A stretch of DNA of 64,000 bases from Flavobacteriaceae bacterium (GTDB lineage Bacteria > Bacteroidota > Bacteroidia > Flavobacteriales > Flavobacteriaceae): positions 1 through 64,000 of the forward strand of contig JABDIV010000069.1 of NCBI GenBank assembly GCA_013003555.1, given 5' to 3'. The position numbers and the translations under genes are program-made. Under the pieces are notes generated by a model. That model was not told where the DNA came from, did not search any database, and worked only from the letters and a program-made list of their open reading frames with translations. The first letter of the stretch is position 1; the number at the start of each line of letters is the position of its first letter. Positions 51,817-56,723 of the stretch are shown here, piece after piece.

Positions 51817-52875
51817 ATGTCTGAGAGCACTGTTTCATGTAAAAATTGTAATAAGGAATTTAAGGAAGGCTTTGAGTTTTGTCCGCATTGTGGTCAGAAG
51901 GCAAAGGATGATCTCACCTTGGGCGTCTTGTTTTATAATACCATAAGCAATTACTTTTCCTTCGACGCTAGATTCATCAAGAGTTTTTTACCCTTAATGT
52001 TCAGGCCAGGTTATGTTGCCAAGCAATTTGTAAGTGGAAAAAGGTTACTATATCTCCATCCGGCTCAATATTATTTATTCGTTTCCGTAGTATTCTTTTT
52101 TCTGTTTTCCTTCAAGGTAAGAGAATATAATTCGAACGTCGATAAGGCATTAAAAAAGAGTTTTGATAGTGAATCGGTTGTTCCGGGAATCGATATGAAG
52201 CCGCTTGATTCAATGGCTGCCAAGGAATTGAGTGAATCGATAAAAAAGAACCAGGCAATTACCGGAATGAGTGATGAAGACGTCGCTAAGCTTGATTCAA
52301 TCATGGTAGACGGCAACAACAATCCGGGGAATTTAACCTTCAGTTACGATAAGAACAAAGTTGATTCCCTGATCGCTATTGACGCGAAAGAACCCGAAAT
52401 TCTGAAAGCGATGGGCATGAAGGATAATGCCGGTTTTTTCGTAAAGCGATTTTATCAGCAATTGCTTAAGTTTCAGAAAAATAGCGGGGGCGGGATTGTT
52501 CAGGCCTTTTTTGACAGTATTCCCATTGCCTTATTTATTCTGCTGCCGATTTTCGCCGTTCTCTTGAAGATTTTTTACTGGCGACGGGGACGTTTTTCGC
52601 ACCACCTCGTTTTCAGTTTTTATTTCTTTTCATTCCTGTTTATCCTGATGAGCCTGATTATTGGTGTAAATTATATCGTCGAGATTCCAGACTGGATCGA
52701 CTGGCTAATTATTCTGTCGTCGTTTTTTTACCTTTGGCTGGCCTTGAGGAATTTTTATCAACAAGGACTTTTCCTGAGTTTAATTAAATCGGGATTCATC
52801 TCATTTTTTTATATGCTACTCATTCTCCCATTAGCGCTGACCGTCATGATTACAGCATCATTTTTCTTCTACTAA
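51817..52875 (+). CDS. DUF3667 domain membrane protein with N-terminal zinc ribbon
   Basis: A 352-residue protein. The N-terminus is a zinc-ribbon (C8-x2-C11, then C22-x2-C25: CKNC, CPHCGQ), followed by the DUF3667 core segment (FYNTISNYFSFDARFIKSFLPLMFRPG..., then RLLYLHPAQYYLFVSVVFFFLF), a soluble loop (about 105-225) and four further hydrophobic segments (about 230-352). Function unknown. It overlaps uvrA convergently by 4 bp. A short inverted repeat (AATGAG/CTCATT, 51749-51768) lies upstream. Confidence 0.88.
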   Translation: MSESTVSCKNCNKEFKEGFEFCPHCGQKAKDDLTLGVLFYNTISNYFSFDARFIKSFLPLMFRPGYVAKQFVSGKRLLYLHPAQYYLFVSVVFFFLFSFKVREYNSNVDKALKKSFDSESVVPGIDMKPLDSMAAKELSESIKKNQAITGMSDEDVAKLDSIMVDGNNNPGNLTFSYDKNKVDSLIAIDAKEPEILKAMGMKDNAGFFVKRFYQQLLKFQKNSGGGIVQAFFDSIPIALFILLPIFAVLLKIFYWRRGRFSHHLVFSFYFFSFLFILMSLIIGVNYIVEIPDWIDWLIILSSFFYLWLALRNFYQQGLFLSLIKSGFISFFYMLLILPLALTVMITASFFFY

Positions 52876-55685
52876 AGTTTTTTTTGCAGATATTTACCGG
52901 TGAAAGATTCCTTTATGTGCACCAATTCTTCAGGTGTTCCGGCTGCCATGATCTTTCCACCATGTTCGCCACCTTCCGGTCCGAGATCAATGATATGATC
53001 GGCGCATTTGATGAGTTCGATATTGTGTTCGATAACAATGATTGAATGTCCCTTTTCGATCAGGGCATCAAATGATTTAAGTAATTTTTTAATATCATGA
53101 AAGTGTAGGCCTGTGGTTGGTTCATCAAAAATGAACAAACCTCTATCAGCCGATCTTCCCTTGCCTAAAAAAGATGCCAATTTGATACGCTGGGCCTCGC
53201 CTCCCGAAAGTGTAGATGAACTTTGACCCAGGGTAACATAGCCTAATCCGACATCCTGAAGTGGCTGCAATCGATTTTTGATCTTTTTCTGATTGTGTTC
53301 TGCAAAAAAGCTGATGGCATCATCGATAGTCATATTAAGAATATCGTCGATCGTTTTTTCTTCAAAAGTAACCTCAAGCACATCTTTTTTGAATCGTTTT
53401 CCCTTGCAGGTTTCACATTCTAAATGAACATCGGCCATAAACTGCATTTCAATTGTTACTTCTCCCTCACCTTTGCAAGTCTCGCATCGTCCGCCTTCAA
53501 CATTAAAGGAAAAGTGTTTAGCGAGATATCCGCGAATAAGACTTAGTTTTTGTTTGGCATATAGAGCCCGGATCTCATCATAAGCTTTAATATAAGTGAC
53601 GGGATTTGATCGAGAAGACCGACCAATTGGATTCTGATCTACAAATTCAATGTATTTAACATTGTTGAAATTACCTTCAATGGACGAATATTGTCCGGGT
53701 TTATCGCCGTAACCACCGATTTCCTTAAGTAAGGCAGGATATAGAATGCGTTTAACAAGCGTGCTTTTACCGCTTCCGGAAACGCCGGTAATAACGGTCA
53801 ACATACCTAAAGGAAAACGAACATCGATATTCTTTAGGTTGTTCTCCCGGGCTCCTTTAATATCGACATAATATTTCGATTCTCGCCGGTTCTCCGGCAG
53901 TACTATCTCTAATTTACCATTCAAATATTTGGCGGTTAACGAATCAGACATCAAAATTTCATTAAAGGTGCCCTGTGCAACAATTTCACCACCAAAAGTT
54001 CCCGCTTCGGGTCCGATGTCGATGATAACATCTGCGGCTGCCATAATATTTTCATCGTGTTCAACCACGATTACAGTATTACCAAGGTCTCTTAAAGCCT
54101 TGAGTACTTCAATCAATTGTTCGGTATCCTTGGGATGAAGTCCAATACTGGGTTCATCGAGGATATACATCGATCCAACCAGGCTGCTGCCCAGTGACGT
54201 GGCCAGGTTGATTCGCTGGCTTTCACCACCAGAAAGCGAATTCGATTTGCGATTAAGCGTGAGATAAGATAGACCTACATTATTCAAAAATGATAAGCGC
54301 GAACTGATCTCTTTTAGCAAGCGATCGGCAATGGCCTGATCGTGATCACTAAGCTCCAGCTGCTTAAAAAAGGCAATCAATTTTTGAAGGGGCATTTCTA
54401 CTAGGTCGGTTATGGTAGCATGCCCGACCTTTACATAATTCGCTTCCTCTCTTAGCCGTTTGCCCTGGCAAACCGTACATTTTGTTTTTCCTCTATATCG
54501 TGATAACATCACACGATTTTGAATTTTATATGCTTTTGCCTCCAATTCGGCAAAGAACTGATTAAGTCCTTCGAAAAATTCGTTGCCATCCCAGATAAGT
54601 TGTTTCTGATCAGAGGTTAATTCGAAATAGGATCGATGAATAGGAAAGTCAAACTTATGGGAATTATTTACCAGTTGATCCCTGTACCAACTCATACTTT
54701 CTCCCCGCCAGGGAAAAATTGCGTTCTCATAGACTGAAAGTGCGGTATTAGGAACCACAAGGCCCTCATCGATTCCTATAATATCACCATATCCTTCACA
54801 CTTCGGACAAGCCCCATAGGGATTATTAAAGCTGAATAGGTGTATGTTGGGTTCGAGGAAGGTAAGGCCATCGAGTTCAAACCGGTTACTGAATTGTTTT
54901 GTTGTACCATCCTCAAGGGTTTCGATAAAACATTCTCCTTTTCCTTCAAAGAAAGCCGTTTGGATGGCATCAGCCAATCGGTTATAAAAATCTTCGTCGT
55001 CTTGAACAATAATGCGATCGACAACAAGGAAAATCGATGTAATTGTCTCACTAATTTGCTCGGCTTCTTCAATTCTTACGATATTCTCATTTATTTTAAG
55101 CCGGGCATAGCCTTGTTGCTGTAAAACCTTAAGCTTGTCTTCCATGGCCCGACCCTCTTCTAGATGAATAGGGGCCAGAAGCAGGAGTTTAGTGCGTTCG
55201 GGATGCGATTTTACATAGTCTAATACGTCAGAAACCCTATCTTTTTTAACTTCCTCACCTGATCTCGGTGAATAGGTTTTTCCGATGCGGGCAAACAACA
55301 GTTTAAGATAATCATATATTTCGGTTGTTGTACCTACTGTTGATCTCGGGTTGGTAGAATTGACTTTTTGTTCAATCGCAATAGCAGGAGCGATACCTTT
55401 GATGTAATCAACCTTCGGTTTGTTCAACCGGCCAAGAAACTGCCGCGCGTAGCTCGAAAGGCTTTCCACATAGCGTCTTTGACCTTCTGCGTAAAGGGTA
55501 TCAAAGGCCAAACTTGACTTACCTGAGCCCGATAAGCCGGTTATCACTACCAGTTTATTGCGGGGAATAACGACATCAATATCCTTAAGGTTGTGCAATT
55601 TCGCACCTTTTATGATGATGTTTTCTTTAGGACTTACTCTTGTAATATCAGTGATAGCGGTCATTTGCGGCGAATAATTTTGCAA
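52872..55685 (-). CDS. uvrA: Excinuclease ABC subunit A
   Basis: A 937-residue protein at the normal UvrA length. Two ABC modules: Walker [15 protein letters not shown] near the N-terminus and [13 protein letters not shown] in the C half, signatures [13 protein letters not shown] and [13 protein letters not shown], and zinc ribbons ([31 protein letters not shown]). UvrA finds bulky DNA lesions and loads UvrB for excision repair. The N-terminal methionine 7 residues later is an alternative start. Confidence 0.97.
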
Positions 55686-55757
55686 AGATACGACTTCTAA
55701 TTCAGCTTTAAAAATGAATAAATACCTGAATTATTATGTTAAAAAACTTGGTTTCTT

Positions 55758-55789
55758 TTGTTTTTTAGGAACGATTGTTGTTATCTTTG
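55758..55789 (+). promoter_or_regulatory. Promoter of the ECF sigma factor gene
   Basis: TTG (55758-55760), 21 bp, then TATCTTTG (55782-55789). Transcription from just after this box gives a leader of about 95-100 nt before the sigma gene. Confidence 0.7.
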
Positions 55790-55832
55790 GTTTATAATAA
55801 ACAGCATTATACTCTATTAGCCTATAACGTAA

Positions 55833-55894
55833 CATTACTTTTTAACTTTAATGAACCCCAAGCACGGAAGCTATTCTGTGTATAAAAAGTAATG
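55833..55894 (+). promoter_or_regulatory. Structured 5' leader enclosing the sigma-factor start codon
   Basis: Perfect 12-bp inverted repeat CATTACTTTTTA (55833-55844) / TAAAAAGTAATG (55883-55894) enclosing 38 nt that include a second 6-bp stem (CACGGA 55863-55868 / TCTGTG 55875-55880, one G-T wobble). The 3' arm contains the ATG at 55892 and abuts the ATG at 55898. In RNA this would hide the initiation region; no T tract follows, so it is not a terminator. Confidence 0.6.
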
Positions 55895-56482
55895 ATTATG
55901 AATCGAGAACTTATCTCCGATGCTGTTTTGGTCTCCAGCTACATTAACGGTGATGAACAGGCGCTTGCCTCACTCATCGAAAGGCACAAACAGAAAATTT
56001 ACAGTTTTATTTACTCCAAGGTATATGACCGTGATGTTACCGAGGATATTTTCCAAGATACCTTTATTAAGGTAATTCGGACTCTTAAGCTCGGTAAATA
56101 CAACGAAGAGGGTAAATTTCTTCCCTGGGTAATGCGTATCGCCCATAATTTGGTGATCGATCATTTCCGGAAGAACAATCGTATGCCCAAATTCGATAAT
56201 ACCGACGAATTCAATATTTTTTCAGTAATCAGTGACGCATCCTTAAATGCCGAAAAAAGCATTATAAAATCTCAGGTTGAAGAAGATGTGAGGCGTTTGA
56301 TCGAAGAATTGCCTGAAGATCAAAAACAGGTACTTATCATGCGAATGTACAAGGATATGAGCTTTAAGGAAATATCGGAAAACACCGGTGTTAGTATCAA
56401 TACTGCACTCGGACGAATGCGTTATGCGCTCATAAACCTGAGAAAGGTCATCGATAAACACAATATAATTTTAACAAATTGA
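55892..56482 (+). CDS. ECF-type RNA polymerase sigma factor
   Basis: A 196-residue sigma-70 family protein with only regions 2 and 4. Region 2: LASLIERHKQKIYSFIYSKVYDRDVTEDIFQDTFIKVI with the -10-recognition helix FLPWVMRIAHNLVIDHFRKN. Region 4: LPEDQKQVLIMRMYKDMSFKEISENTGVSINTALGRMRYALINLRK, a helix-turn-helix. The ATG at 55898 (MNRELISD) is an equally good start. No anti-sigma gene is adjacent; instead a 47-residue gene follows. Its 5' leader can form a long hairpin over the start, suggesting post-transcriptional control. Confidence 0.93.
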   Translation: MIMNRELISDAVLVSSYINGDEQALASLIERHKQKIYSFIYSKVYDRDVTEDIFQDTFIKVIRTLKLGKYNEEGKFLPWVMRIAHNLVIDHFRKNNRMPKFDNTDEFNIFSVISDASLNAEKSIIKSQVEEDVRRLIEELPEDQKQVLIMRMYKDMSFKEISENTGVSINTALGRMRYALINLRKVIDKHNIILTN

Positions 56483-56538: not shown

Positions 56539-56682
56539 ATGGCAAAACTTTACACTAAGAATTTTAAACATTCCAAGACCCTAAAACCGAAAGAAGAAAC
56601 GGTTAATTTTCTTCTAAGTTACTCTCAGGCTTTAAGTGTTATAAATTGTAATAAATTAAAGTTTGAAGCGCTTCTAAACTAA
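56539..56682 (+). CDS. 47-residue small protein downstream of the sigma factor
   Basis: ATG at 56539, TAA at 56680-56682; the product opens MAKLYTKNFKHSKTLKPKEE and ends with a hydrophobic/charged mix (LSYSQALSVINCNKLKFEAL). It has a basic N-terminal third and an amphipathic helix-like centre, and no membrane segment. It is framed by the sigma gene (56 bp upstream) and a near-perfect terminator 10 bp downstream, so the unit looks genuine. A partner or regulator of the sigma factor is conceivable. I recognise it only as a small Flavobacteriia-type protein. Confidence 0.65.
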   Translation: MAKLYTKNFKHSKTLKPKEETVNFLLSYSQALSVINCNKLKFEALLN

Positions 56683-56691
56683 ACTTTGGCG

Positions 56692-56723
56692 AAAAGCTCC
56701 GACGAAAGTCGGAGCTTTTGTTT
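56692..56723 (+). terminator. Terminator of the sigma-factor operon
   Basis: A perfect 12-bp stem (AAAAGCTCCGAC / GTCGGAGCTTTT) closed by a GAAA tetraloop, then T-rich sequence. It reaches the stop codon of the convergent nth gene. Confidence 0.92.

Follow-up and report, generated by a model that had tools for sequence, protein, structure and literature searches.

The window, that is, the whole analysed stretch of 64,000 nucleotides of a Flavobacteriaceae contig, carries an ECF sigma factor gene whose leader contains a long inverted repeat close to the start codon. The locus raises the question of whether this leader controls the translation of the sigma gene and, if so, what kind of factor acts on it.

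The sigma gene and its leader hairpin

The sigma protein consists of Sigma70 regions 2 and 4 only (Pfam, NCBIfam), which identifies it as an ECF factor, a very common stress-type sigma factor of bacteria. An orthologue was found in 373 of 397 Flavobacteriaceae genomes and in 258 of 295 genomes of the class Bacteroidia. In the window, uvrA (52872–55685, minus strand) is oriented divergently to the sigma gene. Downstream of the sigma gene come a 47-aa ORF, a terminator-like hairpin and then nth, encoded on the opposite strand. Anti-sigma proteins are the usual restraint on ECF sigma factors, and no classical membrane anti-sigma gene was found among the neighbours of the sigma gene. The features of the locus are as follows:

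55756–55789, plus strand: sigma-A type promoter read from the sequence, with TTTTG at 55756–55760 and TATCTTTG at 55782–55789
55799–55808, plus strand: 5' leader segment, a possible outer helix with codons at 55919–55928 (weak co-variation)
55820–55832, plus strand: conserved 5' element GCCTATAACGTAA (class consensus GCCTATNG..TAA), with GCCTATA outside the stem and the last five bases inside it
55828–55844, plus strand: 5' arm of the outer stem, from the fold (pairing in 93% of the cells of 61 rows)
55854–55863, plus strand: conserved bulge segment AACCCCAAGC (AACC in other families), near-invariant in the 30-sequence alignment
55862–55881, plus strand: nested hairpin of 8 bp, specific to Flavobacteriaceae-type leaders, all 8 pairs with two-sided changes
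55883–55900, plus strand: outer stem, 3' arm, in which A55895 is bulged and which covers the start codon as well as the A-rich ribosome-binding region
55898–56482, plus strand: ECF sigma factor of 194 aa, start ATG 55898 (Pfam Sigma70_r2 and r4_2, TIGR02937)
56539–56682, plus strand: conserved microprotein of 47 aa encoded 3' of the sigma gene (Pfam/NCBIfam, no match)
56692–56722, plus strand: terminator-like hairpin closing the sigma–microprotein unit, a 12-bp perfect repeat followed by a T-run

The TATCTTTG box at 55782–55789 fits the Bacteroidota sigma-A consensus TAnnTTTG, as described for flavobacteria (PMC9723704). In 26 of 30 relatives, a TAnnTTTG box was located 24–31 nt upstream of the conserved 5' element and, because of this near-constant distance, the leader together with the 5' element should be transcribed. 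Both the match and the kept placement of the box support the good promoter that an earlier sequence-only reading of this DNA had put upstream of the hairpin.

Between the sigma gene and uvrA, the identical TATCTTTG box occurs once in each orientation, at 55683–55690 (minus strand) and 55782–55789 (plus strand), probably as a divergent promoter pair. The divergent arrangement of sigma and uvrA was also kept in another family (L041/L066). Moreover, a second copy of the sigma locus was detected in the assembly of the window, on contig C61 (3.5 kb; L002), with 93% protein identity. It probably derives from another strain or species present in the assembly, consistent with the stated contamination of 5%.

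The perfect 12-bp inverted repeat on which the sequence-only reading was built was found exactly where it had been placed, at 55833–55844 and 55883–55894, its arms being separated by 38 nt. The window contained seven perfect repeats of 12 bp or more with a loop length of 3–60 nt, compared with 0–1 in ten dinucleotide-shuffled windows. RNA folding, which the same reading had proposed as a check, gave a stable structure for the leader (55797–55930), with −33.2 kcal/mol versus −16.1 ± 3.0 for shuffled sequences (z = −5.8; not reached by any of the 200 shuffles). The outer stem of this fold comprised 17 bp, as it ran beyond the repeat: 55828–55844 paired with 55883–55894 and 55896–55900, with A55895 bulged, the pairs outside the repeat being those of 55828–55832 with 55896–55900. 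The nested stem suggested earlier is present in the fold but has 8 bp including G-U pairing (55862–55869/55874–55881), not 6. A possible further helix between 55799–55808 and 55919–55928 gave z = −2.9 for own versus swapped partners, with 41 of 20,000 permutations as good, and it was confined to close relatives. No T-run followed the leader hairpin and transcription attenuation by the leader stem was therefore set aside. No GGAGG Shine–Dalgarno sequence was present in the leader of the window.

The conserved start codon, ATG 55898–55900, lies inside the extended stem and pairs with CGU 55828–55830 in the window and with CAU in most relatives. The idea that the distal arm contains or abuts the initiation codon thus holds for the true start, but the start itself had been put 6 nt too early. 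The codon meant was probably ATG 55892, also inside the stem, which several relatives (L024, L026, L028, L031) either lack or have out of frame. The sigma initiation region had the highest pairing probability among the 41 ORFs in the window with a length of 180 aa or more (0.93 versus a mean of 0.48, sd 0.14). An upstream ORF running from ATG 55851 to the TAA at 55890 was also considered and rejected, as it was not preserved in relatives.

Upstream adenines and low structure favour translation initiation in Flavobacterium johnsoniae (PMC6847099). Since the stem hides the A-rich region, the closed form would be expected to lower initiation, and a long stem that by default encloses the start codon and the ribosome-binding region would allow little sigma factor to be made.

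Co-variation and co-evolution of the stem arms

The leaders of 30 Flavobacteriaceae shared one pattern, GCCTATA – (CATAA)CATTACTTTT – A-rich linker – AACCCCAAGC – variable hairpin – AAAAGTAATGATTATG. In a plain MAFFT alignment of these leaders, 86.6% of the cells in the named structure formed standard pairs, in comparison with slid controls near 39–54% paired. Two-sided changes, counted in the same 30 leaders aligned without structure, were found in 43 cells versus 22.8 ± 3.5 (0 of 500 shuffles). A set fitted to a covariance model, with more members of the family, gave 145 two-sided cells versus 45 ± 5, and 21 of 24 pairs had changed on both sides, with an alignment that leans towards the model and includes a few antisense matches. 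Because of this bias, the MAFFT alignment and the arm-swap test described below carry more weight. The compensatory changes that a start-masking sigma leader should display, and whose absence would have told against the sequence-only reading, were abundant among relatives in both the outer stem and the nested hairpin, which, as far as sequence comparison can tell, speaks for such a leader.

The same leader architecture was found in other orders of Bacteroidia, where the sequence over the ribosome-binding site differs. The covered site is A-rich in Flavobacteriaceae, GGAGG in several other families and the start codon in Bacteroidales. Many leaders outside Flavobacteriaceae carry a real Shine–Dalgarno sequence (AAAAGGAGG) in the 3' arm, facing CUACYYUUU or ACCUC in the 5' arm. 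In leaders of the Bacteroidales type, a set including Parabacteroides, Dysgonomonas, Bacteroides, Prevotella and Muribaculaceae, the start codon itself is located in the 3' arm (CAUUAC...GUAAUG). The AACC motif precedes the 3' arm in many leaders of other families. The conserved feature is therefore the covering of the initiation function, not a fixed sequence.

To compare arms independently of any alignment, each 5' arm was paired with its own 3' arm and with the arms of other families. For 48 families represented by one leader each, the own-arm duplex had −7.6 kcal/mol versus −4.9 kcal/mol for swapped arms, an advantage of 2.7 kcal/mol that none of 20,000 permutations equalled. A composition control with shuffled own 3' arms gave a mean z of −1.84. 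For the Bacteroidales-type arms (n = 72), the values were −5.5 and −4.0 kcal/mol, respectively (gain of 1.5 kcal/mol; 0 of 20,000 permutations). Judged from the co-evolution of the arms, the initiation region or start codon is conserved in its pairing with the upstream arm, as in a start-occluding leader. A few leaders (L085, L108, L114 and L131) had little predicted stem and kept the 5' element. The stem is thus not universal and the 5' element may have a further role.

A strong Shine–Dalgarno sequence (GGAGG) was noticed in the sigma leaders of several other families (L057, L063, L073, L084 and L103, among others). GGAGG is uncommon in Bacteroidia, the ribosomes of which normally hide the anti-Shine–Dalgarno sequence (PMC9976891). 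The GGAGG-bearing sigma gene is possibly a further gene read preferentially by ribosomes lacking bS21.

The conserved 5' element and its possible reader

In the 5' element, G-C and T-A-T were invariant in the 30 relatives. Among 79 Bacteroidales-type leaders, GCCTAT was present in 77, with G two bases later in 73 (GCCUAU-N-G), and its distance to the YTAC of the 5' arm was 9–10 nt in 70 of the 77. Outside Flavobacteriaceae, the combined element exceeded the 99% level of shuffled upstream regions in 44 of 90 leaders, with about one expected by chance, and the other 46 remained below this level in a scan of the positions more than about 25 nt away from the start. Start codons were assigned by rule. 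All seven exact matches to the element plus arm in 295 class genomes preceded this sigma gene, whereas a reversed control pattern gave five scattered matches. Covariance-model matches in the class sample were confined to sigma leaders, and no second site was found in the genome of the window besides the near-identical sigma locus on C61. The element is thus dedicated to the sigma gene, as every copy detected in the 295 genomes precedes it.

These data are best accommodated by a cis-acting translational switch dedicated to one gene, closed by default and opened or locked by a factor that reads the unpaired element, and we regard this reading as probable. A trans-acting factor would recognise the unpaired GCCUAUNG located 5' of the stem, probably together with AACC(CC), and shift the balance between the closed and open forms. 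The earlier proposal of remodelling by a ligand or RNA becomes more specific in this way, and protein can be added to the candidates, since the invariant element immediately precedes the stem and falls outside 55833–55894. The reader would most likely be a protein or other macromolecule dedicated to the sigma gene, a preference that is a matter of judgement and follows from the occurrence of the leader at one gene per genome and from its short conserved core.

The second route offered by the sequence-only reading, melting of the AU-rich stem by heat, fared less well. A pure RNA thermometer, in which heat alone frees the start codon, would fit the AU-rich stem over the initiation region and the fact that sigma genes such as rpoH are known targets of this kind of control. 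However, start-codon pairing was predicted to decrease from 0.98 at 37 °C to 0.94 at 50 °C, so that the modelled stem hardly opens, the invariant unpaired GCCUAUNG would be needless, and the element is kept in gut Bacteroidales living at a near-constant body temperature. A thermometer is thus highly improbable.

A conserved unpaired sequence beside a stem over the ribosome-binding region, distributed very widely, could also suggest a metabolite riboswitch whose small-molecule aptamer would consist of GCCUAUNG, AACC and the stem. We consider this unlikely, as one gene per genome is unusual for metabolite sensing, the conserved unpaired core is short and neither a conserved junction nor a pseudoknot was found. 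Somewhat less likely still is the pairing of a small RNA with the 5' element, in the manner of DsrA with rpoS. The rpoS-like architecture and an unpaired conserved 6–8-mer, suitable as a seed, would agree with it, but a seed invariant throughout the class would need an equally invariant small RNA. Among ribosomal RNAs, 16S rRNA contained no complement to the 5' element and 23S rRNA gave isolated matches only; one of the latter, to GCCTATNG at the 3' end of 23S rRNA, was judged to be due to chance.

Tandem sigma paralogues were observed in at least ten Flavobacteriaceae genera (L152–L162, L170–L179). In ten genera with tandem sigma genes, copy 1 had in every case kept the promoter box together with a GCCTAT-like element and the stem, while copy 2 lacked both element and stem. 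The conserved region upstream of copy 2 was a different one, TTTGACAACAT...TCTAGTTTTA, which may represent another type of promoter. The joint loss of element and stem in copy 2 would be expected of one functional unit. This bears on the reading of GCCTATNG as an operator in the DNA, situated immediately downstream of the transcription start, with the stem merely a static brake on translation. Such an operator would account for the palindromic CTATAG, the near-constant distance to the promoter and those leaders that possess the element but not a good stem. Against it stand the nearly fixed spacing between element and 5' arm (9–10 nt in most Bacteroidales-type leaders, as given above) and the tandem copies, and we consider it about as doubtful as the small RNA.

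The preferred translational switch may also involve the downstream microprotein. In all 30 relatives, its gene directly followed the sigma gene, with which it was co-duplicated, and relatives of the protein, with a C-terminal YSKAL...LN signature, were found across the class Bacteroidia. The microprotein of the window had no match in Pfam or NCBIfam. A longer form in one family (L122) showed a weak likeness to an anti-sigma N-terminus (NCBIfam antisigma, E = 0.00076, far below the curated cut-off). From its sequence and position, the microprotein may be a reduced anti-sigma factor or a partner in leader control. As no classical membrane anti-sigma gene accompanies the sigma gene, control at the mRNA level, possibly with the microprotein, may be the main sigma switch. 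A bolder version would make a class-wide RNA switch the chief means of controlling an ECF sigma factor that lacks a classical anti-sigma. A dedicated RNA-binding regulator, possibly the microprotein, would then recognise GCCUAUNG and subject sigma synthesis to a feedback loop. This version is put forward tentatively, as a speculation with the chances rather against it.

Comparison with known systems

The covariance models of Rfam release 15 gave no match over the window leader at E values up to 5, and 20 leaders of the class gave one hit, to a Listeria sRNA, far below the gathering score. No description of the sigma leader was found in a search of the main texts of freely accessible papers. 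A transcriptome study of F. psychrophilum lists 64 structured leaders in its Table S7 (PMC9723704), and the flavobacterial version of the leader may already figure among them. The elements of that study are likewise conserved flavobacterial leaders without an Rfam match, whereas the examples named there are pheA, hisG, ftsY, acsA, alaS and rimP (PMC9723704). The sigma leader looks like a previously undescribed RNA switch on a major regulator.

Its fold and recognition-like sequence accompany a sigma factor of most Bacteroidia genomes and are kept class-wide, in gut and environmental orders alike. Control of this factor at translation would be directly testable in the model species Flavobacterium johnsoniae, Bacteroides and Parabacteroides, and GCCUAUNG provides a sharply defined bait for a regulator search in a phylum in which little is known about regulation by RNA.

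A Bacteroidota gene already known to be controlled at translation initiation is rpsU of F. johnsoniae, which is autoregulated through its Shine–Dalgarno sequence by ribosomes lacking bS21 and is reported to be the only strong Shine–Dalgarno gene typical of Flavobacteriales (PMC9976891). Several non-flavobacterial sigma leaders share GGAGG with it. Unlike rpsU, the window leader has no Shine–Dalgarno sequence, and the GGAGG versions of the sigma leader lie inside a stem.

The sigma protein can be likened, by description only, to SigP (PGN_0274) of Porphyromonas gingivalis, an ECF factor of similar length (193 aa; PMC4800418) with a single homologue in F. johnsoniae (PMC10951265). The 80 loci gathered for the Bacteroidales-type leaders contained none of P. 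gingivalis. SigP is a regulator of type IX secretion (T9SS), whereas the orthologue of the class sigma factor also occurs in gut Bacteroidales. Many gut Bacteroidales lack type IX secretion.

Among sigma genes, the E. coli rpoS leader offers a close parallel in architecture. There, a leader hairpin masks the start region of the sigma gene and sets its translation, with the participation of Hfq and several small RNAs. The rpoS leader is much longer and no sequence relation to it was seen; the invariant unpaired GCCUAUNG and class-wide co-variation belong to the Bacteroidia sigma leader. In the E. coli rpoH thermosensor, structure likewise covers the initiation region of a sigma gene, with the coding region heavily involved, and is opened by heat, whereas the main stem of the Bacteroidia gene lies in the leader and is predicted to be closed at 50 °C. 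By analogy, the leader resembles the known start-occluding sigma leaders of rpoS and rpoH but has a conserved element of its own.
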